Assembly (NCBI GenBank): GCA_013141115.1
Contig: JABFRP010000002.1
Location: 1,414,647-1,478,646, forward strand
From: Ferruginibacter sp.
Lineage (GTDB): Bacteria > Bacteroidota > Bacteroidia > Chitinophagales > Chitinophagaceae
Direction of reading: 5' to 3'
Length of the DNA: 64,000 bases
Shown: positions 33,238-47,645 of the stretch, in pieces
Layout of the letters: each line of letters starts with the position of its first letter
Numbering within the stretch: the first letter of the stretch is position 1
The notes under the pieces: model-generated
Databases searched by the model: none
The model's input: only the letters and a program-made list of their open reading frames with translations
Told to the model about the DNA's origin: nothing
Position numbers and translations under genes: made by a program

Positions 33238-34353
33238 TTAATTATTCAACATCAATGGCATTACCAGCATCAGCAGTTCTTCATTATCGCCCATTTCGGT
33301 AGGTTTAATAATACCCGCTTTTGTAGGCGTACTCAATTCCATATTTATTTCGCTGGTATCGGCGCCATTCAGCATTTCAATTAAAAATTTGGCGTTGAAA
33401 GCAATTTGCAGGTCTTCGCCATCATACTGGCAGGCCATGCGTTCGTTACCTTCAAAACTAAAATCCACATCCTGTGCGGCCAACTGTAATTCGCTGCCGC
33501 TGATGCTTAATGCCACCTGGTTGGTGCTTTTATTACTAAATACACTTACACGGCGCAGGGCATTTTGAAAATCGCTTTTGTTCACCGTCATTTTATAAGG
33601 ATTATCAACCGGTATTACCACTTTATAATCGGGAAAACGGGCATCTATCAACCGGCACACCAGTTCGGTACCGCCATGTTTTACAAATAAGTGATTGCTA
33701 TTATAGCTGATGTTCAGTTCATCTTCATTATCGGGTAAAGAACCTTTTAATAAGCTCAAAGGTTTTTTAGGTACAATGAAAGAATCTTTTTTAGGGCAGC
33801 TTACATCGGTACGGGTATAACGCACCAAACGGTGGGCATCAGTAGCAACGAAGGTCATCCCTTTTTTATCCAGTTCAAAAAACACCCCGGTCATGGCCGG
33901 GCGAAGGTCATCATTGCTTACCGCAAAAATGGCTTTGTTGATAGCAGTAACCAATGCGGTAGATGTCATGGTAAAACTGTTGGCATCATCAGCCGCTGGT
34001 TCTTTAGGAAAGTTATCGGGATTTTCTCCCATCACTTTATACTTACCATTATCGCTGGTTAATTCCACACCAAAATTCTTATCTATATTAAAAGTGAGTG
34101 GCTGCTCGGGTATGTTCTTTAAAGAATCCATCAGGATCTTTGCCGGGATACATACTTTGCCGCTGTCTTTGGCTTCAATATCCAGGTGTACTTTCATTAC
34201 GGTTTCCAGGTCGGTAGCCACTACGGTGAGTTTGTTTTTTTCAATTTCAAACAAAAAGTCTTCCAGGATGGGCAATACGGTATTGGCGTTAATTACACCG
34301 CTGATCTGTTGCAGTTGTTTCAGCAAAGCCGAAGACGAAACGATAAACTTCAT
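33238..34353 (-). CDS. dnaN: DNA polymerase III beta subunit (sliding clamp)
   Basis: A 371-residue three-domain clamp, normal length. It opens MKFIVSSSALLKQLQQISGV and includes LPILEDFLFEIEKNKLTVVA, TDLETVMKVHLDIEAKDSG, FVATDAHRLVRYTRTD and FNAKFLIEMLNG. The dimeric ring tethers DNA polymerase III to DNA. dnaN is often close to the replication origin; here dnaA, recF and gyrB are not neighbours, as is common in Bacteroidota. It is monocistronic with a terminator on its 3' side. Confidence 0.97.
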   Translation of the reverse strand: MKFIVSSSALLKQLQQISGVINANTVLPILEDFLFEIEKNKLTVVATDLETVMKVHLDIEAKDSGKVCIPAKILMDSLKNIPEQPLTFNIDKNFGVELTSDNGKYKVMGENPDNFPKEPAADDANSFTMTSTALVTAINKAIFAVSNDDLRPAMTGVFFELDKKGMTFVATDAHRLVRYTRTDVSCPKKDSFIVPKKPLSLLKGSLPDNEDELNISYNSNHLFVKHGGTELVCRLIDARFPDYKVVIPVDNPYKMTVNKSDFQNALRRVSVFSNKSTNQVALSISGSELQLAAQDVDFSFEGNERMACQYDGEDLQIAFNAKFLIEMLNGADTSEINMELSTPTKAGIIKPTEMGDNEELLMLVMPLMLNN

Positions 34354-34382: not shown

Positions 34383-34490
34383 AAAGATTGCTTGTAATGA
34401 AGATAATAAAAATTGCCCCGGCTGTGTATAAATAGGCAATATTGTGATTAAAGCTGCATTTTGCTGCAAGCAGTATATTTTTGTAGCTCT

Positions 34491-34958
34491 ATGAACACTC
34501 AAAAATTTACACCCCAACAGTCGCTCCCCAAGGCAAAACACTACTGCGCTTACCAGGAGCGCTGCCATGCCGAGGTAAAAGATAAGCTGTATGGTTTTGG
34601 GTTAAATAAAAAAGAAGTGGACGAGATCATCAGCATACTGATTGAAGAGAATTACTTAAATGAAGAACGTTTTGCCATTGCTTTTGCCGGTGGCCATTTT
34701 AGAACAAAAAAATGGGGCCGGGTAAAAATAAAATACCAGCTCAAACAAAAACAAGTTAGCGAATACTGTATTAAAAAAGCCCTGCGGCAAATTGACGAGG
34801 AAGATTATTTAAAGACCCTGCAAAAGCTTTTTGATGAAAAAGTAAAAACACTCAGGAGTGAAAAAAATATCTTTATCAAAAAAAGAAAATTACAGGATCA
34901 TTTGATGCAAAAAGGTTTTGAAACTGATTTGATAAGAGAGATGATGAATACGATTTAA
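34491..34958 (+). CDS. recX: Regulatory protein RecX
   Basis: A 155-residue helical-repeat protein with RecX motifs: KAKHYCAYQERCHAEVKDKL, VDEIISILIEENYLNEERFA and FRTKKWGRVKIKYQLKQK. RecX modulates RecA filaments. The ATG at 34491 is chosen because an upstream TTG at 34461 would add ten residues with no family similarity. A perfect TATTTTTG -7 box lies at 34476-34483, seven bp before this ATG and after the TTG. A transcript starting there could not use the TTG and would be nearly leaderless. recA is not adjacent. Confidence 0.88.
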   Translation: MNTQKFTPQQSLPKAKHYCAYQERCHAEVKDKLYGFGLNKKEVDEIISILIEENYLNEERFAIAFAGGHFRTKKWGRVKIKYQLKQKQVSEYCIKKALRQIDEEDYLKTLQKLFDEKVKTLRSEKNIFIKKRKLQDHLMQKGFETDLIREMMNTI

Positions 34959-35102: not shown

Positions 35103-36002
35103 TTATTCCTTCTTTTTACCTGCAACATTTTTATCAATTACAAAAAACACTTTAGGTTCACTCATACTTTCGCCATTGCCATCGGTTTGGTTTAAAGGCT
35201 GACCTAAATTGTCAAGTGTTTGTATGGTCCAGATAAATTTTTTGCCTTTTTGGGGCGATGCATTCAGGCTATCTGCTGCAGCAGTATACGGCATCATACT
35301 TAATTGTGGTTGCCATATAAATTGCGTGGTGCCTACAATATTTTTATCCAGCAATGGCTGGTTGCTTCTTAATGCCTGTACATCTTTTTGATTTTCTAAA
35401 ATTTCAAAAACCAGTAAACGATAAGTAACGGGAGTGGTTGAAGCAGGCACCACCGGCGTCCAACGGAAAGTTATGGCCGATTGTGCTATGGATTTGTTTA
35501 ACTCTTGTTCATTAGATGGCAACATTAAAGTGGGCAGTTGATAAGCCGCCAGGTAAAAAGTTTTACAGGTAACTGCCGATGCAGGTGCATAATCGGGAAC
35601 TCTTACCAATTGTACACAAATCATATAATTATCTGCAGGCAGCTTGCCTGTTTTTAATAATGCAGTTTGATGTTTGCCGGTAAAAACAATATTCTCCAAA
35701 GGCAAAACATCTAAAGCGTTTAAAATGGTTGATGCGCCGGCTAGTGGCGTATATGTTTTAGCTGTGTTTAAATTAGTGGCTCCAATTACAGTACCATCTA
35801 AAGTTTTTATTTCGGTCTTTATTTTTACATCAAACCTTACTGCTTGGCTGCTACCCATTATAAGCGTTAACACATCCCTGCGGTTTGCCCAATCTGATAA
35901 CCTGGCGGGTGGCCTGCCTGCTACTGTTAAGTTGATATTTATTTGTGATAACAGCGATTGTACGGTTATCATAAAACAAACTATTGCTATAATCTTTTTC
36001 AT
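35103..36002 (-). CDS. Secreted protein, paralogue of the 596-aa protein N-terminus
   Basis: A 299-residue protein with a signal peptide (KKIIAIVCFMITVQSLLSQ). It has the same order of motifs as the N-terminal ~275 residues of the 596-residue protein at the start of this operon. The motifs are PARLSDW/PAKIDDW, an APTLI/LPTLM strand, FRWTPVVP with PVTYRLLVF, LRSNQPL/MKSNQPI and FIWTIQTLDNLGQPL. The fold looks like an FN3-type beta-sandwich domain. No type IX sorting domain was recognised. It is the last of four genes packed with gaps of 2-23 bp, all exported. Function unknown; a structural part of a surface assembly is plausible. Confidence 0.75.
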   Translation of the reverse strand: MKKIIAIVCFMITVQSLLSQININLTVAGRPPARLSDWANRRDVLTLIMGSSQAVRFDVKIKTEIKTLDGTVIGATNLNTAKTYTPLAGASTILNALDVLPLENIVFTGKHQTALLKTGKLPADNYMICVQLVRVPDYAPASAVTCKTFYLAAYQLPTLMLPSNEQELNKSIAQSAITFRWTPVVPASTTPVTYRLLVFEILENQKDVQALRSNQPLLDKNIVGTTQFIWQPQLSMMPYTAAADSLNASPQKGKKFIWTIQTLDNLGQPLNQTDGNGESMSEPKVFFVIDKNVAGKKKE

Positions 36003-36004
36003 AG

Positions 36005-37735
36005 TTATTTGTTTTTCTTAGTATCAAATTTATATTGAAACCCGGTGCGGCAGGTGCTTTCTAAATAGTTAGCCCCAGCAGGAATTACAGAATTGCCGTA
36101 CTTAAAATAGTTGGTAGATAAATAGGTGTTCCAGCTAAACTGTTTGGTTATCTTCCAATCCACACTGCAGGAAGCGATGAGATTATTATCGCTTTTAAAT
36201 GAATTGAGTTTGGTTAAATTGTATTGCAACTGTCCACGCAATTGTACTTTCTTTTTAGCAACGGGCATACTTAACCCGCTGCTGAGGGTGGCCAGTGTTG
36301 TTTTTGCCATTGGCACATCATTGTAAAAATACATCAGGCTAAAATCGGGCGTAACGTCTTTAGTAAAAAAAGAAGGCACATAGGTAAGCAGGGCCGTGTG
36401 GGTATTGTTGCTGGTGGTTAACCCGGTTAAAACATCACGTTCATCGTATTTGCTGTAATTGTAACTAAGGCTAAGCAGGTGCATCATTTTTGTGTTGCTC
36501 CAGGTATAGGTGGGACTAATACCAAGATCATTACTTACATTTTTTATGCCGTAAGGATTAAGGCCGCTGGCGGTTTGAAAACCAAAATTATTATAGTTTA
36601 CATTCAGGCTCCACTTATCATTAAATTGAGTAAACCAGTTAAGGTTGCCAATAAACTGGTTGGCTTTTAAAGTGGTGTTGCTGATATTATTTACCCGCTG
36701 CCCAAGGCTGGCTACAATATTCATTTTATTTTTCCAGGTATTTAATTTTGTGTTGATAGTATAATCCAAACGATCGGGTTGCAGGTAAGGATAACCCACT
36801 GTTTGAAAACCAGCACCAAAATATTTACTACTGATACCGATATCAAAGTTCTTTCCTTTTTTACCCAGGGACCCGGTTGCAGCATAATCTCTTATAGTTG
36901 CAGTATGTGCTTTAATAAATGGTTCAAACGATTTTATTAATAAGCTGGATGCGGTATTTAAGTCGGTGGTAAAAACAGATTGGGCACCTTCTAATTTTAC
37001 ATACCAGCCTTTATTAAAATGCACATTGGTTATCATACTAATTACAAAACCTTCCTGTGGCTTAATAGTTAATGGCGGCGGTGCAGAAGAGCTAATGAGA
37101 TCTTTTCCCTTTGCAAAATTAAAAGCCACTTCATACTTATCTTCTTTTTCTTTACCAATTTGAAACATCCAGTTATTGCGTTTAAAGGCCCCGGTAATGC
37201 CGGGCAAAGGCGGCCCTGCAAAATAATTAATACCCGGCTGCGATGTACCCGTAAAAAATTTGATACGGTATTGTCCTGGCTTCAAATCAAAGCCTGCGCC
37301 AAACACACCAATGTCCCCCGTGCTTAATTCGCTGTAGCGTAAATATTGCGTACCCAATTGCAACTCGGCCCATTTGTATTTTGGATTAACCGCAATATTA
37401 TTTACCGGGTTGGTCATCCATTGTTTAAAATTTTGCTTTGGCCCGCCGGGAATAAAACCACTGTAAGGCCCGGCAAAGTTGGTGGGCAATGCTGCCAGGT
37501 TAATATTAAATGGCAAAGAGAAATTTTTACCAAATTGAAAGTTGGGCATAAAATTAAACCGCACCTGGTTCCATGGCCGGCGTGGGGTATAACCCGTCCA
37601 GCCAGCGGGGTTTCTGTCCAATCCATAACCTTCGTAACTAATACCCATGGTACCGCTTACACTTACTTTTGGTACTTGTGCTATGACTGATGTTGCACAG
37701 CATAAAAAGAATAAAACTATAATGGTTTTGTTCAT
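36005..37735 (-). CDS. Predicted outer-membrane beta-barrel protein
   Basis: A 576-residue exported protein (signal: KTIIVLFFLCCATSVIAQ). It is rich in alternating aromatic strands (NIAVNPKYKWAELQLGTQYL, WYVKLEGAQSVFT, WSLNVNYNNFGFQTASGL, KQFSWNTYLSTNYFKYG) and ends with a strand in CRTGFQYKFD. That is the pattern of a porin-like outer-membrane barrel. No TonB box or plug domain was recognised. The start is ATG 37735; an in-frame GTG at 37747 abuts the preceding stop. It is the third gene of the surface operon and follows the 1394-residue repeat protein by 12 bp. It may anchor or export its neighbours; this is inference. Confidence 0.7.
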   Translation of the reverse strand: MNKTIIVLFFLCCATSVIAQVPKVSVSGTMGISYEGYGLDRNPAGWTGYTPRRPWNQVRFNFMPNFQFGKNFSLPFNINLAALPTNFAGPYSGFIPGGPKQNFKQWMTNPVNNIAVNPKYKWAELQLGTQYLRYSELSTGDIGVFGAGFDLKPGQYRIKFFTGTSQPGINYFAGPPLPGITGAFKRNNWMFQIGKEKEDKYEVAFNFAKGKDLISSSAPPPLTIKPQEGFVISMITNVHFNKGWYVKLEGAQSVFTTDLNTASSLLIKSFEPFIKAHTATIRDYAATGSLGKKGKNFDIGISSKYFGAGFQTVGYPYLQPDRLDYTINTKLNTWKNKMNIVASLGQRVNNISNTTLKANQFIGNLNWFTQFNDKWSLNVNYNNFGFQTASGLNPYGIKNVSNDLGISPTYTWSNTKMMHLLSLSYNYSKYDERDVLTGLTTSNNTHTALLTYVPSFFTKDVTPDFSLMYFYNDVPMAKTTLATLSSGLSMPVAKKKVQLRGQLQYNLTKLNSFKSDNNLIASCSVDWKITKQFSWNTYLSTNYFKYGNSVIPAGANYLESTCRTGFQYKFDTKKNK

Positions 37736-37747
37736 GGTATTATTCAC

Positions 37748-40700
37748 TTATTTTTTGGGTTCGTTATTTACCGGCCTGTTTTTTATTTCTTTAATTTTTG
37801 CTTCTATTACCGGTATCAATTCCACATCACCGCGTTTTATACCTTTTGCTTTTAACTCTTTTAATTGTTTCAATTGTTGCTCCAATACTTCTGTTGTAAT
37901 TTCTTCCTGCTTAGTTGCTGCAGTAGCCGTTGGGTTATTACCATTTGTTGTTGGTAAACCGCCTGTAGGTTCGGCATTTTCTCCGCAAGTTTTACAATCG
38001 GTATTTACAGCCTCTTGTGTTATAGTAGTTGCATCTAAATCTTTATTGGGTAATCCAACGCCAGTACCACCTGTGGGATTATCATGGCCCGTAGTTGGTG
38101 GAATACTGTAGTCGAAGCAAACCACCACTTCACATTCTTTACAATCCCTGTCGCGGAAGGTAAACTTCACACATATTTTTCCATACAGCGTACAACAGGT
38201 AATGATTGATTTTGGCGGCAAAATAAACTGCATGTTTAATGATGCTGGCATAGTAAATCCGTTATAATCACTCCAGATTGTTTCTCTGGGATTTTGATGG
38301 GTATTGGTTAACGACGGTGTGAATTGAATAACCGGCGGCATAGTACCCATGGTAATACTATCTGCTACCGCCACATTGGTATTAATGTTGGATGCATTGT
38401 AAATACTACTCCAGGTATAGGGTAAATTTTTACAGGCAATACATTCGTTGCTAAAGCCACTTTGCAATGTAAAGCCTACCACTTCAGCTCTCAACTGTGT
38501 ATATAACATACCTGCCGGTGTAGTGATGTTAAAATTCTGACTTAACAAAGTATAGGGCGGAGCGGATGTAACATGCGTAATACTTTTTGTGGTTGGCTTT
38601 ACAGTGAGTTTAGGATCGCAGGGACAAACAGGACACACCACTTTAAAAATAAACTTACAGCTATCACAAATTTTATTACCGCATTTTCCATAAATAGCTA
38701 CAGTGTATAAACCGCCATCGTTGGTGGTAAAGCTGGCTGTGCCCGTACTTGTTGTAGTGCTTCCGTTTGGAAATGTAACTACTATTTGAACAGAGCCGCA
38801 ACTTGCAGGTACGCAGTTATATGCTGCTGAAAAATTGTAAGTGGTTTTGCATTTTAAAGTAATGGGCCCTTGATTTGTTTTGCAATCTAACTTGGTAGTA
38901 GTGCCAGTTCCCGGCCATGGTACAGCATCGCCAATTGGTACTGCTGTTTTAGCCAATCCCAGGTGTGGATTAATAATTACCTGGTTGCTTATGTATATAT
39001 TTCCCCAACTGCTTTTATTACAATTACAACCATCATCTTCTACTAAACCTACATCTATATCATTATTGGTTTGGCAGTTAAATGTAAATACGGCACTGGT
39101 AAAATTATTGGGGTTTACATCACTATTTAAAGCAGGGTTGCTGTTATTAATATTAGTAAGCATATAACCTGCAGGTGGTGTAACAGTAATGTAATAAGAG
39201 CCGGCGGCTAAGCCACAAAAGCTATAATAACCGGGGAAGCCATTGATGTTATTGGCAGAAACAACCGGTAAGCCTACCTGCACATTTGCTGCTGTATATA
39301 AGGTAATGGTGCATCCGTTAATGCCAGCTTCGCCAACATCCTGCAAGCCATTGTTGTTGGTATCAAACCAAACAAAATTACCAATGCAGCCGCAGCCTGT
39401 ATCTGCAATATTTACACAAACTTTTGGAGATTCGGAACCAATATATTGTACGGCATTTTGAAAAGCAGATGCTCCAAAACTATTCCAGCCCACCATACCC
39501 GCAGTTGCCCCCGGAGGCGTTTGTGCTTTGTATACAAATGTTTCTGTTTGCCCCGCACCTAATGTAAATGCACCAAAATCTATACGTACTGATTTTTGAT
39601 TTTGAATAACTCCAAGTGCCGGAATGTTCCATGTAACCGGCAGATCGCAACCAATGGTGGTATTGGGTACTATATACAAATCGGCAGGGGTTGCCCTGTT
39701 GGGTTGCGGATTGGTAGAATAAGTAATTGCAGAGGCACTGCCTAATGGTATGTAATTGGTTAAATAAACGGGCATGCTGCTACCTCTTACATTACAATTG
39801 ATCACATTAATATCGCTGCCAGATACGGACGTATTTGGTAAAAGATCGATCATACGTATTTGAGTAAAGGCTACATTGCCCGGGTTATTTACTTTTAGCC
39901 TGTAATAAACAGCCGCCCCGGGAGCAACGGTTACACAACTATCCCAAACCAGGCTGTCTTTACTTACCTCTTTTACTAATTTTAATGCCAGTTTCTTTTC
40001 GCACACATATACATGCGTGGAGTTATTCCACCAGTTTACTTCACTCATTGCCGCATTAGTTGCATCGTAGCAGTTGGCGGTATTGGTAAGCAGGCCAGCA
40101 GGCGCCATGCTGGTAATTTTTGCTTTAAAGTTTATTACATACCAATTGCTGCCTGTATTACATGATGCAGTAAGTGTGGGTAAATTCCATTGTAAGTTAG
40201 TAGTGGCGGATGATTCTGCATGTGCTACAGTAATACCGGTACCAGGTTGATTGGTAACTATACATTTTGTATAGGCAGCATAGGTTGCAAAAGTTGAACT
40301 GTTAGGAATATATTCCAACCCTGTGGGCAACACATCTTTTATACTGGCACCGGTTAAATTTGCATTACCATAATTTTGCACTGCTATCGAATAATTGATC
40401 GTATCATTTTCATTTAAGCAATACTGGTAGTCCCAATGATTGCACATGTCTTTAATAACTTCTACTTTGGGTATTTTAGCACTAATAACAAATGATGGAT
40501 TACAATTGTAATTACCATTGCTGGTAGTATAGGTTGCGCCGGTCATCGCTACCGTGTTGCCTACATTTACAGGCGCCAATGTATTCCACGTAGTGGCTAA
40601 TACAGTAAAATGAAGCTGGCCAAAACTTAAACTATTATTGCCATTAATACCCATATTGGAAGTAATAGCAAAATTGCTGATGGTACATGCACCGGGTATA

Positions 40701-41932
40701 TTAAATGGCGGAGCATAAAAGTTAATATTGGTTGCAGCCAGGGGCCCGGTAAATGTTTGTGTGTAAGGTCCGCAGGTTGTATTTACAGTAATGGTTACCC
40801 ACTTGCCTGCCGGTATAGCTGCCAGGCTAAACGAATCAACATGTATTTGCCCGGGAATGGGTGTACTATAGCCAATATTGTTCCAGTTAAGAGACGAAGG
40901 ATTACATTGATTGTAATACCCTAAATTAATATTAAGACTGGCAGGGCAACCAATAAAATATTGATAGCCTGCACCAAAATAGTAAGGAGAAGAGAATGTA
41001 CCACAATTATTACCGGGAACAGCGGCTACCAGCTTAATACATTCTGTATTGGAGTTCAACGTTTTTAAAACGCTGGTACAAACATTGGTTCCTTTTAATG
41101 TGGCGGTATTGCATTTTGTAAGGCCAATATCTCCTACAGGAAAAGTAACATGTATATAATAATCATAAACACCTGTTACTACATCTAAAGTATTTACACC
41201 ATTACCAATATTAAAAGAAACGGTTCCCACGCCTGTGGTAAACGGAATATTAGTTAACGTGCCGTCTTTTACATCTACAACCGTAGCATTAGCGGGCAAA
41301 TTATCTGTTATACTGGAGTTAGATAAATTAACGCAACCAGAACCGTTAGATACCCGGATATGATAATACACATCTAAAGGAGCCCCACAATTAACTACAT
41401 TATAATTAAATGGACTGCCGGCCGTGTAACCCTGGTACCAGGCGTAACTTCCGTATTGTATGTATTTGGTTATACTCCAGGTTTCGGTAGATGTGGCCGT
41501 AAGGGTGAGCGGGCTTGCAGCTACCGGTACAGGATGCTGGGTAGTTTGCGTAGTTGCATTTAAGGTACCAGTTAACCCTGCACATGCCATACCCGGCTTA
41601 AATTTAACACTGTAAGAAACGGAGTACGACCCGGTACTTTTTGCGCCTTCATTAAAGGTTAATGTAGTAGTGGTACCAACAGATGAAGTACTGTAAGTAC
41701 CATAGCCACACACATCAAAAATAGTATTGTTAAAGCTGGCTTTTATTTGTGTACCGGTGGCATTAATATTACTTATGGAATACTGAATATTAATAGTGTA
41801 ACAAGCACCGCAATTATTACTGGGGTTACCCGCTGATGATTGGGTAATACCTAATGTTTGTGTTTGAGCATAGCTGGCAAGATGGTTGGCTATTAGGCTG
41901 CAAAACAGGTATATATATTTTAAACGCTTCAT
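37748..41932 (-). CDS. Large secreted DUF11/SdrD-B repeat protein with Cys-rich C-terminal domain
   Basis: A 1394-residue exported protein (signal: YIYLFCSLIANHLASYAQ). Two DUF11-like modules span ~490-830 (e.g. INYSIAVQNYGNANLTGASI). A SdrD-type B domain spans ~845-985 (GNFVWFDTNNNGLQDVGEAG, then YYSFCGLAAGSYYITVTPPA). A Cys-rich domain at ~1103-1276 (CPC, ECIACK, TCC, CKECEVVVC) is shared with the 596-residue protein. The end (~1340-1394) is a Glu/Lys coiled coil (LEQQLKQLKELKAKGIKRG), not a type IX sorting domain. It is probably an adhesin-like or scaffold surface protein. It is the second gene of the LytTR-linked operon. Confidence 0.8.
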   Translation of the reverse strand: MKRLKYIYLFCSLIANHLASYAQTQTLGITQSSAGNPSNNCGACYTINIQYSISNINATGTQIKASFNNTIFDVCGYGTYSTSSVGTTTTLTFNEGAKSTGSYSVSYSVKFKPGMACAGLTGTLNATTQTTQHPVPVAASPLTLTATSTETWSITKYIQYGSYAWYQGYTAGSPFNYNVVNCGAPLDVYYHIRVSNGSGCVNLSNSSITDNLPANATVVDVKDGTLTNIPFTTGVGTVSFNIGNGVNTLDVVTGVYDYYIHVTFPVGDIGLTKCNTATLKGTNVCTSVLKTLNSNTECIKLVAAVPGNNCGTFSSPYYFGAGYQYFIGCPASLNINLGYYNQCNPSSLNWNNIGYSTPIPGQIHVDSFSLAAIPAGKWVTITVNTTCGPYTQTFTGPLAATNINFYAPPFNIPGACTISNFAITSNMGINGNNSLSFGQLHFTVLATTWNTLAPVNVGNTVAMTGATYTTSNGNYNCNPSFVISAKIPKVEVIKDMCNHWDYQYCLNENDTINYSIAVQNYGNANLTGASIKDVLPTGLEYIPNSSTFATYAAYTKCIVTNQPGTGITVAHAESSATTNLQWNLPTLTASCNTGSNWYVINFKAKITSMAPAGLLTNTANCYDATNAAMSEVNWWNNSTHVYVCEKKLALKLVKEVSKDSLVWDSCVTVAPGAAVYYRLKVNNPGNVAFTQIRMIDLLPNTSVSGSDINVINCNVRGSSMPVYLTNYIPLGSASAITYSTNPQPNRATPADLYIVPNTTIGCDLPVTWNIPALGVIQNQKSVRIDFGAFTLGAGQTETFVYKAQTPPGATAGMVGWNSFGASAFQNAVQYIGSESPKVCVNIADTGCGCIGNFVWFDTNNNGLQDVGEAGINGCTITLYTAANVQVGLPVVSANNINGFPGYYSFCGLAAGSYYITVTPPAGYMLTNINNSNPALNSDVNPNNFTSAVFTFNCQTNNDIDVGLVEDDGCNCNKSSWGNIYISNQVIINPHLGLAKTAVPIGDAVPWPGTGTTTKLDCKTNQGPITLKCKTTYNFSAAYNCVPASCGSVQIVVTFPNGSTTTSTGTASFTTNDGGLYTVAIYGKCGNKICDSCKFIFKVVCPVCPCDPKLTVKPTTKSITHVTSAPPYTLLSQNFNITTPAGMLYTQLRAEVVGFTLQSGFSNECIACKNLPYTWSSIYNASNINTNVAVADSITMGTMPPVIQFTPSLTNTHQNPRETIWSDYNGFTMPASLNMQFILPPKSIITCCTLYGKICVKFTFRDRDCKECEVVVCFDYSIPPTTGHDNPTGGTGVGLPNKDLDATTITQEAVNTDCKTCGENAEPTGGLPTTNGNNPTATAATKQEEITTEVLEQQLKQLKELKAKGIKRGDVELIPVIEAKIKEIKNRPVNNEPKK

Positions 41933-41955
41933 AAAAATATTTTAGTCTTGATTAA

Positions 41956-43746
41956 TTATTTTTGACAACCGGTAATTTTATAATTGTAACAAACCAGCTT
42001 ATTACAAACTGTACAATCTTCGTAAGTAATTACATACCGTATACAAAAATTTACCTCGGCATTGCAACAGCTTACCATTGGTGGAATACTAACTGTAAAA
42101 TTGATGGGCACGCCGGCACTAATGTTAATATCACCTAATGCATCAAGCTGGGCCGAGTGAGGCTGAGGAATAACACTGGTAAAGTTGCTGTTGGTGGTAG
42201 CGGCATTAATAAAGTTGCCAAAATAGCTATCGTTTTTATTACAGGTAATACAGTTTTCGTTTTCAGGTTTCATATCAAAATAAACCAGTTCGGCACGTAT
42301 TCTTTTTACTTTTTTAGGGGCTGATGCAACCAGTGCTGTAAAGTTCAACCCCCCGTTTCCGTTATTGGTAATATTTCCCTGCATACCAATATTAATGGTT
42401 ACTTCATCACAAGCGCTGCAAGGGCATTTAGGATATTTTAAACTATCAATTTCATTACGTGCATTTCTATTAGCATTAAATTTTAAAGCATCATCTACCA
42501 GGCCATAGTAAGTAAATTGTACGGGTAAGTTGGTGGCTGTTGTGTAATCAAACTGAAAGTTGTGTGTGCTGTTTGGCGCTAAAGACGCTGGTGTAAAACC
42601 AGACGCTGGTAATGGAGTAATATTACTGATAGTGCCCGAACTGGCTTCCAGTATATCGTTCATGGTAAGTGCGCCGTTATAGGTGCCACTCTTCATTCTT
42701 ATGTTGTTTCTTAAATTGGTGCCGGGGCCCGGGTTGGGATTTGCCGGATACCCTGTAAAGTTTAGCGCATCGTTTATTAAAATACTGTTTGAGCTGCTTA
42801 CCATATTTTTATAGTGCCCCCAAATATGGTATTTGAATAAACCATTTTGTTTTGGTAAACAAACAGCACTATCAATTTTAAATTCTGCATTGGCACCAGC
42901 CATCATTGCCTGTGGCGGGTTAGTAGGATTATTTTCTTTTACACTAAATGACCAGGGTTCGCTGGTTCCATTATTTCTTCCAACAGGCTTTCCCTCCTTG
43001 TTCAATGCCTGTACACTCCAGATGAATTCGCAGAGGTAAGGCGGCTTGCATGGGCCGGTGTATATATTGGTAATTACCGCCTGAGTAATGTTCTCCACAT
43101 CTTTTGTAGCGATGGGTTGGTTGCTTTTCATGGCAGCAGTACCGTTTTGCCCCTGCATTAATTGCCACACTTTTAAACGATACGTAACCGGATCTCTTGG
43201 TTTTGGTACCAATGGCGTCCATCTAAAACTTAGTGGCCGCTTTATTTCAGCTTCGGTGTAGGTTTTACCATTTTCGGGTGTGATCAATGTTGGTGGCGCA
43301 TAATCTTCTGCTTTTGCGCTCTCCACTTTAAACTCTTTGCACACTTCGTTGCTGATGGCAATACGATCCTGGTTGTAAAACTGAATGCAAAGCTGGTAAC
43401 TGCCTTCTTTTAATACAGTGCAGTTACTCATCATACCGGTAAGTTCGTTGGTAGTAAATGTTTTTACATCAAAAGGGCTCATGGGGTTAGCTGTAGCAAC
43501 ATTATTACCACAGATAACGGCGCCATTACTTTTAATTTGTATTACCAGCTTAGGCTCTTTCAATTGTACCGTTGGTGCTTTTTGTGCCGTAAGAATTAAT
43601 GCGGCAGGTACGCTTATCCAATCGTCGATCTTTGCAGGTAAAATATTTTTTACCTGGAAGCTCACAATTTTTATCTGGCTGATCTGGCTTAGTGCGGCGG
43701 TGCATGCAAAGCATGTTAATAGCAGCAGTAGTTGTAGTTTCTTCAT
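41956..43746 (-). CDS. Secreted two-module protein (FN3-like module plus Cys-rich module)
   Basis: A 596-residue exported protein (signal: KKLQLLLLLTCFACTAALSQ). Residues ~20-280 share a domain with the last operon protein (APPTLITPENGKTY, FRWTPLVPK, PVTYRLKVWQLMQG, FIWSVQALNKEGKPVG). Residues ~441-596 share the Cys-rich domain of the 1394-residue protein (CPCSACDE, ENCITCNKN, SCCNAEVNFC, EDCTVCNKLVCYNY). It therefore links the other two by common modules. It is the first gene of the operon, 98 bp after the response regulator, with a LytTR-like operator 57 bp before its ATG. Function unknown. Confidence 0.78.
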   Translation of the reverse strand: MKKLQLLLLLTCFACTAALSQISQIKIVSFQVKNILPAKIDDWISVPAALILTAQKAPTVQLKEPKLVIQIKSNGAVICGNNVATANPMSPFDVKTFTTNELTGMMSNCTVLKEGSYQLCIQFYNQDRIAISNEVCKEFKVESAKAEDYAPPTLITPENGKTYTEAEIKRPLSFRWTPLVPKPRDPVTYRLKVWQLMQGQNGTAAMKSNQPIATKDVENITQAVITNIYTGPCKPPYLCEFIWSVQALNKEGKPVGRNNGTSEPWSFSVKENNPTNPPQAMMAGANAEFKIDSAVCLPKQNGLFKYHIWGHYKNMVSSSNSILINDALNFTGYPANPNPGPGTNLRNNIRMKSGTYNGALTMNDILEASSGTISNITPLPASGFTPASLAPNSTHNFQFDYTTATNLPVQFTYYGLVDDALKFNANRNARNEIDSLKYPKCPCSACDEVTINIGMQGNITNNGNGGLNFTALVASAPKKVKRIRAELVYFDMKPENENCITCNKNDSYFGNFINAATTNSNFTSVIPQPHSAQLDALGDINISAGVPINFTVSIPPMVSCCNAEVNFCIRYVITYEDCTVCNKLVCYNYKITGCQK

Positions 43747-43802
43747 TGAAGCAATTTTTTTGCATCATAAAGATTAGAAGAAAGAATGAGGCTTTTTACC
43801 AG

Positions 43803-43836
43803 ATTGTATACTTGCGCTTTGGCATTGTATAAGCGC
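43803..43836 (-). promoter_or_regulatory. Putative LytTR operator upstream of the surface operon
   Basis: On the minus strand, two half-sites containing TATACAAT (plus-strand ATTGTATA at 43803-43810 and 43824-43831) are spaced exactly 21 bp. Each is preceded by GCGC. Two direct half-sites about two helical turns apart is the known layout for LytTR-family regulators. The same arrangement lies upstream of the sensor gene at 47583-47616. It ends 57 bp before the ATG of the 596-residue gene. Confidence 0.7.
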
Positions 43837-43844
43837 AGGAGTGG

Positions 43845-44606
43845 TTAGTTTTTTCGTTTGATCCATTTTTCAAACCGGGAAAGAAATTCTTCCTTGCGGC
43901 GGGTGGCTACGGGTAGTTCTTTACCATTTTCTAAAACTACATCGCCACCACTGCCTTTAATGTATTCTTTTATGTAAGAGAGGTTGATGATGTATTTATC
44001 ATGTATGCGGATGAAATTAGTTTCGGGCAATAGTTTTTCATATTCGCCTAACTGGCGGCTTACCATTATTTTTTTATCATCGCACAAATAAAAGTTGGTG
44101 TAGTTGCCGCTGCTTTCGCAATACATAATATCGGTAAGCTTTACAAATACCAAACCATTACTGGTTGAAAGTGGAATCTTTTCCGGCTCAGCCTGTTTAC
44201 TGCTTTGTTCTAATAAGGAGAAGAGGTTCCTGTTGATATTTTTTGATTCAATATTTTTTGTAGCGGTATTTACTGCCGCTACCAGTTTTTCGCTGTTAAT
44301 GGGTTTGGTAATATAGCCTGTGGCACGATGCTCAAAAGCTTCTACTGCGTGATGGCTGTAAGCGGTTACAAAGATCACTTCAAAATTTACCGACTCTAAT
44401 TTTTTAAGCAGGTCAAACCCGTTCAGGTGCGGCATTTCAATATCTAAAAAAACCAATTGCGGTTGTAATTCATTTATAAGCTGCAGGCCGTTTTTTGCAT
44501 CGGTTTCGGTAGCCATAATTTTTACATCGGGGCAATGCAGCTCCAGCATTTTTTGCAGCAGCTTTATATTCTTTGCTTCATCGTCAATAATTACGCAGTT
44601 GATCAT
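43845..44606 (-). CDS. LytTR-family response regulator
   Basis: A 253-residue regulator. The receiver domain (~1-120) has IIDDEAKNIKLLQKML, the phosphoacceptor Asp in PQLVFLDIEMPHLNGFDLL and FVTAYSHHAVEAFEHRATGY. The LytTR DNA-binding domain (~150-250) has ADIMYCESSGNYTNFYL-type sequence, RQLGEYEKLLPETNFIRIHD and KYIINLSYIKEY. Its ATG overlaps the TGA of the upstream sensor gene, so the two are translationally coupled. It probably binds the two 21-bp-period operators in this region, regulating its own operon and the four secreted-protein genes downstream. Confidence 0.95.
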   Translation of the reverse strand: MINCVIIDDEAKNIKLLQKMLELHCPDVKIMATETDAKNGLQLINELQPQLVFLDIEMPHLNGFDLLKKLESVNFEVIFVTAYSHHAVEAFEHRATGYITKPINSEKLVAAVNTATKNIESKNINRNLFSLLEQSSKQAEPEKIPLSTSNGLVFVKLTDIMYCESSGNYTNFYLCDDKKIMVSRQLGEYEKLLPETNFIRIHDKYIINLSYIKEYIKGSGGDVVLENGKELPVATRRKEEFLSRFEKWIKRKN

Positions 44607-47539
44607 GGTTTCAGGTCTAATGGAATTTTTACAATAATAGTGGTTCCGGCAGCATTACCGTAGTTATCTTTTTTATCAATAATTTCCTGTTGAATATTAT
44701 ACAGTTCGGCCCGGCGTTTAGAAATATTCATTCCCTTGCTCTGGTATTCGATATGCATTTTACTTTTTAATGCCGAAGCTTTTTCCCGGCCAATACCATT
44801 ATCATCTATTACACAAACTAAAAAATTATTTTCGTTTGTAGCACTAATATTAATTATGCCTTTTCTGTTTTCTAAAAAGCGCATGCCGTGCCGTATGGCA
44901 TTTTCTACATAAGGCTGCAGCAGCATGGCGGGTACAAAAACTTTTTCTACATCTACTGAAATGCAGGTGCTTATTTTATAGGCAAACTTATCTTCAAAGC
45001 GAAGTGTTTCCAACTGCAGGTAATTGTCCAGGTAATTCATTTCATCTTTTACCGAAATAATGGCAGCATCCGAATTGTCGATGGTGCTGCGCATTAATTC
45101 TGCAAATTTATCCAGGTACTTATCTGCCTGTGCATAATCCCTGTCGTAAATAAACCCTTTAATACTATTGAGGCAATTAAATATAAAATGCGGGTTGATC
45201 TGCGCTTTTAATGCCTGCATTTCCAGCTCGGTAATTCTTTTTTCGGTAAGTATTTTTTGTAATAACGTTTTTTGTTTTCTTTTATTCCTGCGCTGCTGTA
45301 TGTACATTATTGCCGCCAGCATTAATGCCACCACAAGTATTCTGAAAATATTGCTTTTCCAAAAAGGCGTACTTATTTCAAACCGCACCACAGCTTCGTT
45401 GGTACTAGGTTTTCCATCACGGCGAATGGCACGTATTTTTATTTTATAATTACCAAAGGGTAATTTTTTTAATTCAATTTTTTCGGTACGCTCCCATTTT
45501 CCATCATTAACACTGTATTCAAAAAAAGGAATAAACCCGGTGAGATCTACGCCTGAAAAATTGATGGTAATATTATTCTCATCGTAATTTAATGCATAAA
45601 ATTCTTTTAGCTCACCGGGCTTGCTGTTAATGGCAATACCCGAAATAAATGTAGCAATATTGGAAACCGGCAACCGGATGTAGGAAGATAAATAACTGAT
45701 GCCTTCGTTGGTGGCTGCATACACGGTGCTATCTTGTATGATAATATCATTTACCTGCTCGCCAATTAAACCATCTGCGGTGCCAAAGTAAGTGTTGTAA
45801 TAAGTAAACTGGTTGCCCTGGTAGGTATAATTTATCCTGTTTAATCCCTTGTTGGTGCCCAGCCAAAGTTCACCAGCCTTGTTACTGTATAAGGCTTTGC
45901 ATACATTCCCGGGAATAATATCTCCCAGTGCAATCGATGCGATCCATTTATTTTCTTTCATCAGCATCAGCGTATCGGTACCCAACCCTATCCACATTAA
46001 ATTATCTGGACTGCAGGCTATAGCATTTATTTTATACAAAAACCCTTTACGGTTTTCTCCAACCCGGGTTAATTTTTTTTGGTCCCATAAAAACAAACCC
46101 TCATTGCTGCCGATATAAATATTGCCGGAAAGATCGGCACCAAAACTTACCACTCTTTTAGCAATGCTGTCAATTACTTTTTTTGTTTTTAAATTATAAG
46201 TAAATGCGTAGGCATGGCCGCCCATTAACATAATAGAATCGTTAATAAGCAGCGCCGCCTTGGTACTGCGGCTATCCCAACCCCGAAAAGCTTTTTCAAC
46301 AGTCATGCTTTTTTCGTTTATCAAAAAAGAACCGGCTTGCGAAGCCACATAAAGCCCGTAATTGGTATTGATTATTGTACGTACCCAGGCATTGGTATTT
46401 TTATCAGGGTTTAACATGAGCTTTTTTACGTACAGCCCATCATAGCTTATCAACTCGCCGTAATTGTTGCCGGCAAAAATATTTTTGATTTTAATAAGCG
46501 TATTAAAATTCTGTTTCAGTTCAGGATTTTCTAATGACGATATTCTTTTTTGCTGCACTTTTACCAGGCCCCTGTCCATGGTGGATAGCCAGATATTATC
46601 ATCTTTATCTTCTTGTATATTTCTTACCGGTATGCCTTCTGCAGCAGAAACAATGGCAGAAAGTTCGAGTGTATTTTTATCTAACAGGTAAGTGGTACCG
46701 CTAACAGATGTTATAGCAAAGCGTTTTCCGGTTTTGCAAAATATACGCAGCTCAAACGGAAAAACTTTTTCTGTAATTAGTTGCACGGCACCAGTTTTAT
46801 CAAAACGATAATTAAGTATAGAGTTGGATGTAGCGATGTAAACATTGTTACCCACCGATTCGCAGGCGATGGCTTCTTTATTAACGGCATACCTGGCTTC
46901 AATTTTTCCATTGGTAAAATCTCTTATACTGTCTTCTGCAAAAATTAAAAATCTGCCCTTTTGATATTCTGTTATCTTCAATGGTGTTCGGGCTTTAAAA
47001 CTATAGTCTTTTAAAAATATTTGTGTTTTGTTGTTGGCATATATAAAGGTTTGCCTGTTGCCATTACTAAAGGCAACGCCGCTAAACTGCAGCAGGTGCG
47101 GCCTGTTAGAAGTACCCAATTGTATTTTAGCCAGCTCGGGATTTGTTTCGTCGTTTTCAAATCTATCGGTGGTGGGATTGTAATAGCAGGGCGAACGACG
47201 GAAAGGAATAACCCACAATGTATTGCTGCTGTCGGTAAACAGATCGGTTATTTCGTTATCGGTAAGGCCATCGGTAGTGCTGTAATTCCTGAATTTTTTT
47301 CCATCAAAGCGGCTCAGCCCAATTTCGGTAGCTATCCATAAAAAACCATTTTTATCAATGATGCTGCGGTATAGTGCATTGGAGGGTAAGCCATCTTTTA
47401 CGGTGTAAATAATGGTTTGGGTATTTTGAGCAATAGATAAAAACGGAAGTAAAACGCATGCAATAAGTACAACACAATACAAACCTGATTTTTTGTAAAG
47501 CAATTGCAGCACCCTTTTGTTTTTTATAAAATACAGCAT
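44603..47539 (-). CDS. Reg_prop/Y_Y_Y sensor histidine kinase, LytS-type
   Basis: A 978-residue sensor. After a signal/anchor (VVLIACVLLPFLSIAQ), Reg_prop beta-propeller repeats (DGLPSNALYRSIIDKNGFLW, DGLTDNEITDLF, GIPVRNIQEDKDDNIWLS) fill the periplasmic part. A Y_Y_Y-type domain (FFEYSVNDGKWE...GNYKIKIRAIRRDG), one transmembrane helix (ILVVALMLAAIMYI) and a His_kinase domain follow, with the phosphoacceptor in QINPHFIFNCLNSIKGF (His784) and an ATPase domain. The ATG at 47539 is chosen: the longer in-frame start at 47635 would lie inside the dinB terminator. A LytTR-like operator lies 44 bp upstream. Ligand unknown; glycan sensing is common for such propellers but not shown here. Confidence 0.9.
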   Translation of the reverse strand: MLYFIKNKRVLQLLYKKSGLYCVVLIACVLLPFLSIAQNTQTIIYTVKDGLPSNALYRSIIDKNGFLWIATEIGLSRFDGKKFRNYSTTDGLTDNEITDLFTDSSNTLWVIPFRRSPCYYNPTTDRFENDETNPELAKIQLGTSNRPHLLQFSGVAFSNGNRQTFIYANNKTQIFLKDYSFKARTPLKITEYQKGRFLIFAEDSIRDFTNGKIEARYAVNKEAIACESVGNNVYIATSNSILNYRFDKTGAVQLITEKVFPFELRIFCKTGKRFAITSVSGTTYLLDKNTLELSAIVSAAEGIPVRNIQEDKDDNIWLSTMDRGLVKVQQKRISSLENPELKQNFNTLIKIKNIFAGNNYGELISYDGLYVKKLMLNPDKNTNAWVRTIINTNYGLYVASQAGSFLINEKSMTVEKAFRGWDSRSTKAALLINDSIMLMGGHAYAFTYNLKTKKVIDSIAKRVVSFGADLSGNIYIGSNEGLFLWDQKKLTRVGENRKGFLYKINAIACSPDNLMWIGLGTDTLMLMKENKWIASIALGDIIPGNVCKALYSNKAGELWLGTNKGLNRINYTYQGNQFTYYNTYFGTADGLIGEQVNDIIIQDSTVYAATNEGISYLSSYIRLPVSNIATFISGIAINSKPGELKEFYALNYDENNITINFSGVDLTGFIPFFEYSVNDGKWERTEKIELKKLPFGNYKIKIRAIRRDGKPSTNEAVVRFEISTPFWKSNIFRILVVALMLAAIMYIQQRRNKRKQKTLLQKILTEKRITELEMQALKAQINPHFIFNCLNSIKGFIYDRDYAQADKYLDKFAELMRSTIDNSDAAIISVKDEMNYLDNYLQLETLRFEDKFAYKISTCISVDVEKVFVPAMLLQPYVENAIRHGMRFLENRKGIINISATNENNFLVCVIDDNGIGREKASALKSKMHIEYQSKGMNISKRRAELYNIQQEIIDKKDNYGNAAGTTIIVKIPLDLKP

Positions 47540-47582
47540 GCGGTTATAAATATAGAAAAAGCAAGTCAATAATTTTTGTTTG

Positions 47583-47616
47583 GCTGTATATCGCTGCTTT
47601 TTGATTGTATAAGCGC
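47583..47616 (-). promoter_or_regulatory. Putative LytTR operator upstream of the sensor gene
   Basis: On the minus strand GCGCTTATACAAT is followed 21 bp later by a degenerate copy ending TATACAGC (plus strand 47604-47611 and 47583-47590). The first 13 bases are identical to the site at 43803-43836, and the spacing is the same. A TATATTTA near-consensus -7 box lies between it and the ATG at 47539. It suggests autoregulation of the two-component pair. Confidence 0.68.
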
Positions 47617-47645
47617 AAAAAAACCGGAGTTGCATAACTCCGGTT
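47617..47645 (-). terminator. Rho-independent terminator of dinB-like gene
   Basis: On the minus strand CCGGAGTT and AACTCCGG form a perfect 8-bp stem around a 4-nt loop (ATGC), followed by seven T residues at 47623-47617. It lies about 25 bp past the DinB stop codon. Confidence 0.88.

Follow-up and report, generated by a model that had tools for sequence, protein, structure and literature searches.

The window analysed here comprises 64,000 nucleotides of Ferruginibacter sp. (assembly GCA_013141115.1, contig JABFRP010000002.1, positions 1,414,647 to 1,478,646) and carries six adjacent minus-strand genes which we read, with a confidence slightly above even, as a regulated operon for displaying or anchoring proteins at the cell surface. 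Such an operon would work like the PorP/SprF-PorE systems, with an unrelated barrel, an adaptor termed module A and no recognised signal of the type IX secretion system (T9SS). Its core consists of BAR, a probable outer-membrane beta-barrel of 580 aa counted from a GTG, with an ATG four codons in (36005..37747), and of P299, a stand-alone module A encoded directly after it (35103..36002). Upstream of these lie P596, an exported protein made of module A and module B (41956..43746), and P1394, an exported 'cargo' with DUF11-type repeats, an SdrD_B domain and module B (37748..41932). A LytS-type sensor kinase gene, lytS (44603..47635), and lytTR, encoding a LytTR response regulator of 253 aa (43845..44606), precede the four. 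These open reading frames (ORFs) and all features below lie on the minus strand. The first-pass annotation had placed the six genes at these positions, which is confirmed; it had put the gaps among the four exported-protein genes at 2-23 bp, and the spacing is indeed tight, although the actual gaps are 23, 0 and 2 bp. lytS and lytTR overlap by 4 bp, lytTR and P596 are 98 bp apart, and by eye P596, P1394, BAR and P299 all have a signal-peptide-like N-terminus.

Two modules are shared among the exported proteins. P596 and P299 are 30% identical (BLASTP E 4.5e-28; E-values among window proteins were computed for the four-protein set), and by BLASTP and hidden Markov model (HMM) module A of P596 spans aa 19-280 (42907..43692). 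This domain had been described as FN3-like: the sharing holds, but the FN3-only label does not, as module A combines a TANFOR-like half with a fn3/SusE-like half. The Cys-rich domain proposed to be common to P596 and P1394 was borne out, with 23% identity between the C-terminus of P596 and P1394 (BLASTP E 7e-7) and reciprocal HMM detection (the P596-seeded B model finds P1394 at 2e-15, the P1394-seeded model finds P596 at 7e-20). By HMM, module B covers the C-terminal aa 349-595 of P596 (41962..42702) and aa 1041-1277 of P1394 (38102..38812), where a 117-aa tail follows. P1394 additionally matches Pfam SdrD_B (aa 850-963, 39044..39385, E 2.1e-23) and DUF11 and the NCBIfam DUF11-type repeat TIGR01451, while P596, BAR and P299 have no Pfam match above cut-off and a PHROGs search gave nothing below E 0.08.

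The pairing of BAR with module A recurs far beyond the window. BAR matches were found in 42 of 195 family genomes and in 132 of 395 phylum genomes, many of the latter being weak partial matches to 800-930-aa proteins. Within the family, a window-type BAR, judged by layout, occurs in six genomes (G000, G024, G068, G070, G148 and G189); of the 58 BAR places, 48 were taken as 20-kb loci and counted, the rest being fragments or weak partial matches, plus G016:C65. Five loci (L031, L033, L035, L036 and L037) are the same places as L122, L115, L129, L125 and L119 and were counted once in counts of distinct loci. Of 43 further family loci, 33 have, directly after BAR, a gene whose product exceeds 1300 aa. 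These giants are often followed by a protein of about 650-750 aa; two such proteins were scanned, with fn3 clear in one and weak in the other. An A model was built only from the N-termini of the 33 giants, selected by position, strand and length. The giants' N-termini align with stand-alone A over 282 columns (hhalign probability 99.9%, E 3.5e-32), and the giants-only HMM, derived from other genomes, detects A in P299 (8e-29) and P596 (2.4e-20). It also matches the gene directly after BAR in 45 of 47 loci gathered with window-type BARs, window included (misses: L134 and L136; two more are cut). Conversely, a stand-alone-A model matches the gene after BAR in 27 of the 43 other family loci, and a second-pass model recovers 9 of 14 same-strand misses (36/43 in total; still unmatched are L159, L160, L164, L168 and L169). 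At phylum level, the stand-alone-A model matches the gene after BAR in 6 of 8 loci (misses: L182 and L184), a count based on ten regions picked by hand, from which L180 and L181 were left out for weak BAR matches. Among ORFs more than four genes from BAR, the A models match 0 of 274 and 2 of 116. These profile comparisons make module A a homologue of the heads of the giant TANFOR-like proteins encoded directly after BAR in most other loci examined, with BAR-A as the shared core.

Matches to the TANFOR family itself (TIGR02542) number 18, spread over 17 of the 195 family genomes, and none of them, the best at 2.8e-13 included, passes the curated cut-off. Their coordinates put 13 in the gene directly after BAR, four (G071, G114, G150 and G180) within about 12 kb of BAR, and one (G090) on a contig without a BAR match. 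The window operon could be seen as a TANFOR polymorphic-toxin locus whose toxins were lost or have escaped recognition: A is homologous to TANFOR-type heads, and TANFOR genes adjoin SprB/CTD proteins (available text of PMC7073777) and, in the loci studied here, BAR. We consider this very unlikely, as P299 ends after A, P596 in B and P1394 in B plus its 117-aa tail, none of the four proteins matches a toxin family (Pfam and NCBIfam, E<=1), and no same-strand ORF of at least 90 aa lies between P299 and the next gene (33238-34353). Barely credible is a chaperone-usher-like pilus with A as periplasmic chaperone, BAR as small usher and P596 and P1394 as subunits. An Ig-like two-half A protein beside a probable barrel and a Cys-rich module common to two exported proteins would suit it; BAR, however, has 580 aa and no usher match, and A also heads giant proteins, unlike a free chaperone.

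Some further arrangements around A were seen. L171, L176 and L178 encode a large protein, BAR, a protein of about 490 aa (A match in L178), a protein of about 1600-1700 aa and a further protein, as if a TANFOR-like giant had been split after its head. L048:5812-19901 encodes proteins of 973 aa, about 380 aa (A-like), 171 aa (OmpH-like), 186 aa, 2034 aa and 243 aa and a DUF6443 protein; similar clusters occur in L045, L047, L049, L056, L057, L059 and L060, and not one ORF in any of these loci matches BAR. In L180:3421-8102, an A-like 389-aa protein is followed two genes later by one of 918 aa that has a BAR-like stretch, and then by a CHASE2-guanylate cyclase gene; this hints at a possible pairing of A with a longer barrel family, too.

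That BAR is an outer-membrane beta-barrel is probable from its sequence. The window BAR has no Pfam match. Pfam applied to 36 BARs (E<=0.05) gave DUF481 in seven (best 0.0027), Phage_OMP in one (6e-4) and OMP_b-brl in one (0.0022), all weak, and in one an endonuclease family by chance (0.0047); an aromatic residue stands within the last three positions in 24 of the 36. PDB profile searches returned nothing better than E 0.24 with BAR and 0.79 with A. The PorP/SprF family was matched neither by the window BAR (Pfam, NCBIfam), nor by that of L031, nor by the 36 BARs against Pfam at E<=0.05.

P596 matches occur in 31 of the 195 family genomes, and a set of 48 loci was gathered by scanning named genomes with patterns of five window-type BARs, which biases this set to the window type. 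Its hosts belong to several Bacteroidota families and include Chitinophagaceae, Flavobacterium erciyesense, F. muglaense, two Lacihabitans strains and a Prolixibacteraceae metagenome-assembled genome (MAG). The order A+B, B-containing cargo, 0-4 further ORFs, BAR and A is present in 30 of the 48 loci; three (L107, L108 and L115) have A, another protein, BAR and A without B, 11 are cut by contig ends, and four (L133, L134, L136 and L138) are of other kinds. The co-occurrence check set beforehand thus finds the full set recurring, and the proposal of one assembled surface structure stands as far as a conserved gene set goes; as to its parts, the data instead favour two units, BAR+A and A+B+cargo.

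This division emerges from the relatives of the window operon, compared by local alignment over 14 loci. The closest BAR and A are those of L092 (BAR 81%, A 70%, A+B 56%, cargo 31% identity), whereas the closest A+B and cargo are those of L121 (A+B 75%, cargo 80%, BAR 66%, A 48%); for the Prolixibacteraceae locus L126 the values are 60% for A+B, 61% for cargo, 50% for BAR and 44% for A. Because the closest relatives of the two units differ, we infer from these identities that A+B+cargo and BAR+A can be exchanged as units. Once B is masked, the cargo proteins from 39 loci form nine single-linkage groups, five of them single loci, including DUF11/SdrD_B proteins, PKD-hydrolases and an M43 peptidase (L122, scanned as L031). 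When each locus is compared with the one whose BAR is nearest, the cargo groups agree in 26 of 39 cases and differ in 13, the window being among the 13.

A gene of about 155 aa after A in 20 loci, presumably RecX-like (by eye), was considered as a fifth component and rejected, as it reflects an inherited neighbourhood. In the window, the RecX-like gene (34461-34958) is convergent with the operon, while it is co-oriented in the 20 relatives; a local inversion is the probable cause.

Module B is about 240 aa long, most copies having the pattern CxxC ... CC-x6-C-x9-CxxC-x4-C, and is present in 72 proteins of 49 loci (the window plus 48). Its end is at most 70 aa away from the C-terminus in 55 of the 72 proteins, 103-128 aa away in 13 and 483-494 aa away in four (L116, L123, L124 and L129). 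A role of B as a strict C-terminal signal is therefore weakened, with 17 of 72 proteins ending 103-494 aa beyond it. Two cargo proteins of about 2030-2042 aa (L116:3803-9892 and L129:3822-9950, the latter scanned as L035) combine PKD repeats, B and a C-terminal PF00144 domain (Beta-lactamase family); this PF00144-tailed cargo occurs on the BAR-A platform in one Flavobacterium and one Chitinophagaceae MAG.

In several relatives, the operon also resembles a known T9SS arrangement. A homologue of the L129 gene for an OmpA/CarboxypepD_reg protein, in this sense PorE-like, lies exactly two genes after BAR on the same strand in nine distinct loci (L122, L125, L126, L127, L128, L129, L130, L131 and L185; the domains were scanned in three, namely L031, L035 and L185), and weaker homologues are found elsewhere in L114, L124, L146, L149 and L154. 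The window genome has 17 matches to this protein at other places (best 8e-50). It also has SprA and 84 TIGR04183 matches, so that a T9SS is probably available. A layout of PorP/SprF, type-B cargo and PorE is described in the consulted portions of PMC12618676 and PMC9143113. The system could be a classical T9SS type-B one, with BAR as a PorP/SprF-type shuttle diverged past recognition and B as the C-terminal signal; the common layout, the nine PorE-like genes and the presence of SprA and of proteins with a T9SS C-terminal domain (CTD) in the genome all fit. We nevertheless hold this reading to be doubtful. Profile searches gave neither a PorP/SprF match for BAR nor a CTD match for the four proteins, B is about 240 aa long, Cys-patterned and in 17 of 72 proteins, including P1394, short of the C-terminus by 103-494 aa, B exists without BAR, and module A has no counterpart in such operons.

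As the first-pass annotation had stated, a LytS-type Reg_prop sensor and a LytTR regulator lie upstream of the four genes. Pfam assigns Reg_prop and His_kinase to the sensor, with Y_Y_Y and HATPase_c below cut-off, and Response_reg and LytTR to the regulator; a PF06580 sensor next to a Response_reg+LytTR regulator marks the locus as a two-component system. LytTR copies 72-86% identical are present in L091, L098, L102, L105 and L132. The ORF start of lytS (47635) falls within a terminator-like hairpin of 10 pairs and a T run (47622..47645, hairpin scan) upstream of the gene, which makes Met33 (47539), preceding a signal-peptide-like stretch, the likelier start. A predicted tandem LytTR-type site of two 13-bp half-sites with a period of 21 (43802..43835) ends 55 bp before the P596 start codon. 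A second, weaker one (47582..47615) ends 42 bp before the likely lytS start, where it would be compatible with possible autoregulation. According to the available text of PMC4847170, LytTR sites consist of repeats of 9-11 nt with spacers of 11-13 nt, and autoregulatory repeats are mostly 12 bp apart (PMC6193735, likewise its available text); with cores of about 10 bp and an 11-bp spacer, the predicted window site fits this format of LytTR target sites before target genes. A sigma-70 scan did no better than shuffles (41 found vs 41.8 expected).

The repeat, C[AG]CWTATACAATC at intervals of exactly 21 bp, stands upstream of the first gene in the nine loci with an orthologous LytTR, and a weight matrix was trained on the 18 half-sites of these loci. 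Over 107 loci (1,935,286 bases, both strands), 13 tandem sites score at least 29 and the next best 21.9. Every one of the 13 stands before an A, A+B or BAR gene belonging to this type of operon, and four (L103, L104, L109 and L110) are outside the training set. When the window was left out of the model, its best sites were still those at 43835 (29.4, before P596) and 47615 (23.1, before lytS), followed by a score of 12.4 overlapping the P596 site; 60 single-strand Markov resamples of the window peaked at 18.4. With at most two mismatches, the pattern occurs 26 times in the 5.44-Mb window assembly versus 11 times for a reversed control, the P596 site being the only exact match and the lytS site a two-mismatch copy.

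The site precedes the operon in 13 of 35 loci, and of 34 loci that could be assessed, 13 encode LytS and/or LytTR no more than 3.5 kb upstream (E<1e-30; L109 was excluded because its upstream sequence is too short, other loci showing at least 606 bases). The site is found in 9 of 9 loci with the orthologous regulator and in 3 of 25 without (Fisher 4e-6), an association that is partly circular because the motif was found in those nine loci. In G126 and G193, genomes of the same genus without the operon, the best LytTR matches among those listed (at most 13 candidates scored per genome) are 45% and 41% identical, similar to the LytTR paralogues of the window genome (43-44%). The earlier description of the system as LytTR-controlled is thus supported for the window by the conserved tandem site and the linked orthologous regulator, whereas universal LytTR control of the operon has to be rejected. 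In L189:3542-4258 (G044), a site scoring 38.0 lies beside a 57%-identical LytTR and upstream of a 192-aa gene that matches neither A, B nor BAR, possibly another target of this regulator family.

The gene set, the homologies, the conserved site and the differing ancestry of the two units are established at the sequence level. On this basis, the display operon may be pictured as follows. LytS, a sensor with a periplasmic propeller, would phosphorylate LytTR, which is predicted to bind the 21-bp-period tandem site before P596 and possibly the weaker one before lytS, and would thereby switch on the four genes as one transcript. BAR, with the presumed topology of an outer-membrane beta-barrel, would have P299 as its dedicated partner docking to it. 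This BAR-A platform could then receive and hold the exported, adhesin-like DUF11/SdrD_B cargo P1394 together with its companion P596, which would dock there by its A head and might be linked to, or sorted with, the cargo by its C-terminal Cys module B. In some relatives, the PorE-like OmpA protein encoded next to A could tie the platform to peptidoglycan. Export would proceed via or beside the T9SS, and the display would presumably serve adhesion.

Several observations weigh against this picture. The barrel-family matches of BAR are weak, none of the four proteins contains a T9SS CTD (TIGR04183 type A or TIGR04131 type B) at E<=1, no PorE-like gene stands beside the window operon, and P1394 itself continues for 117 aa after B, as one of the 13 proteins with 103-128 aa. 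Exchange of cargo groups is the minority case, 26 of 39 nearest BARs keeping theirs. TIGR02542 matches stand-alone A weakly (3 of 22, best 0.0097) and P299 not at all, but A has profile-profile homology to the heads of giants, several of which have sub-cut-off matches. Most related operons lack regulator and site: the scans revealed no site at L033/L115, L185 and L190 nor before the operons of L099 and L107, of which L099, L107, L115 and L185 do have LytS and/or LytTR. Three other places in the genome score like the lytS site with its 23.1, two intergenic (L217, 23.8; L194, 22.8) and one within an ORF (L212, 23.0), so that the lytS site has only its position in its favour. Moreover, the A profile matches in 60 of 195 family genomes, many of the proteins being about 360-430 aa long, and A-like proteins occur in genomes without a BAR match, e.g. 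G001, G002 and G015; A is therefore not confined to BAR. Likewise, B genes lie directly downstream of LytS/LytTR in L041, L042, L043 and L051, whose genomes (G014, G061, G113 and G184) have no BAR match, which counts against an obligate B-BAR link. In favour of control by LytTR, the top site of each of these four loci (22.0-26.2) is in the lytTR-B gap, three of the loci belonging to one genus.

The A-like proteins and LytTR-associated B genes without BAR would suit a plain co-regulated adhesin operon, in which BAR is an ordinary porin-like barrel that neither holds nor exports other proteins and A and B are surface domains of a generic kind, Ig-like and Cys-stabilised; so would the predicted nature of the contacts of BAR with A and B. 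We judge such an operon unlikely, since BAR is directly followed by an A-headed protein in 45 of 47 loci, in 36 of 43 (over two passes) and in 6 of 8, with neighbours that differ considerably, and the A models match only 0 of 274 and 2 of 116 distant ORFs. Beyond the display operon of the window, it is tentatively proposed that BAR and the TANFOR/A head constitute a so far unrecognised route for mounting or exporting proteins at the outer membrane, used across the Bacteroidota and running parallel to the PorP/SprF branch of the T9SS. Proteins would be accepted via an N-terminal A head, as one chain in the giants and here through a separate adaptor and an A+B companion; adhesin, peptidase or hydrolase cassettes would be swapped, and one branch would be under a LytS/LytTR switch.

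What the first-pass annotation observed is confirmed, and its interpretation is partly supported. Its view that this is not a described system agrees with the literature searches (listings and abstracts), in which neither this operon nor a pairing of a barrel with TANFOR proteins turned up (most subscription journals lie outside this scope), although module A is related to the TANFOR proteins in the available text of PMC7073777. According to that text, T9SS exit of TANFOR toxins was only hypothesised in 2020, and in its main text the terms 'barrel', 'outer membrane protein' and 'porin' do not occur. The probable barrel, whose gene directly precedes 13 of the 18 TANFOR matches of the family sample, offers a testable candidate for a partner in TANFOR toxin export, and the window operon is a version of the platform without a recognised toxin and with a predicted site for its own regulator. 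The probable barrel and its partner protein persist while the adjoining large adhesin-like protein varies among lineages, which looks like an undescribed mode of surface mounting; genetic study of the platform is conceivable in cultured relatives, e.g. Limnovirga soli and Flavobacterium muglaense.

Compared with known systems, the operon shares with the TANFOR polymorphic toxins (TIGR02542; available text of PMC7073777) the full-length alignment of A with the giants' N-terminal region and a neighbourhood of surface-repeat proteins, but here A stands alone with 299 aa or is fused to B, with no toxin. Like the PorP/SprF-type-B-PorE clusters (consulted portions of PMC12618676), it joins a large adhesin-like protein and a presumed dedicated outer-membrane barrel in one cluster, in nine relatives with an OmpA/CarboxypepD_reg-type protein as well; unlike them, BAR has no PorP/SprF match, the four proteins have no type A or B CTD and A has no counterpart. 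With the SdrD/MSCRAMM B-type repeats (10ps, 4jdz) it has in common the SdrD_B domain at aa 850-963 of P1394, here in a Gram-negative context and in a protein that ends in module B plus a tail. Repeat and spacer lengths agree with those of LytS/LytTR systems with tandem direct repeats, for which autoregulatory repeats are known (PMC4847170 and PMC6193735, in their available text), whereas the Reg_prop propeller sensor, the TATACA-based motif and the surface-operon target set the window apart. The individual parts are similar to known ones, unlike their combination.

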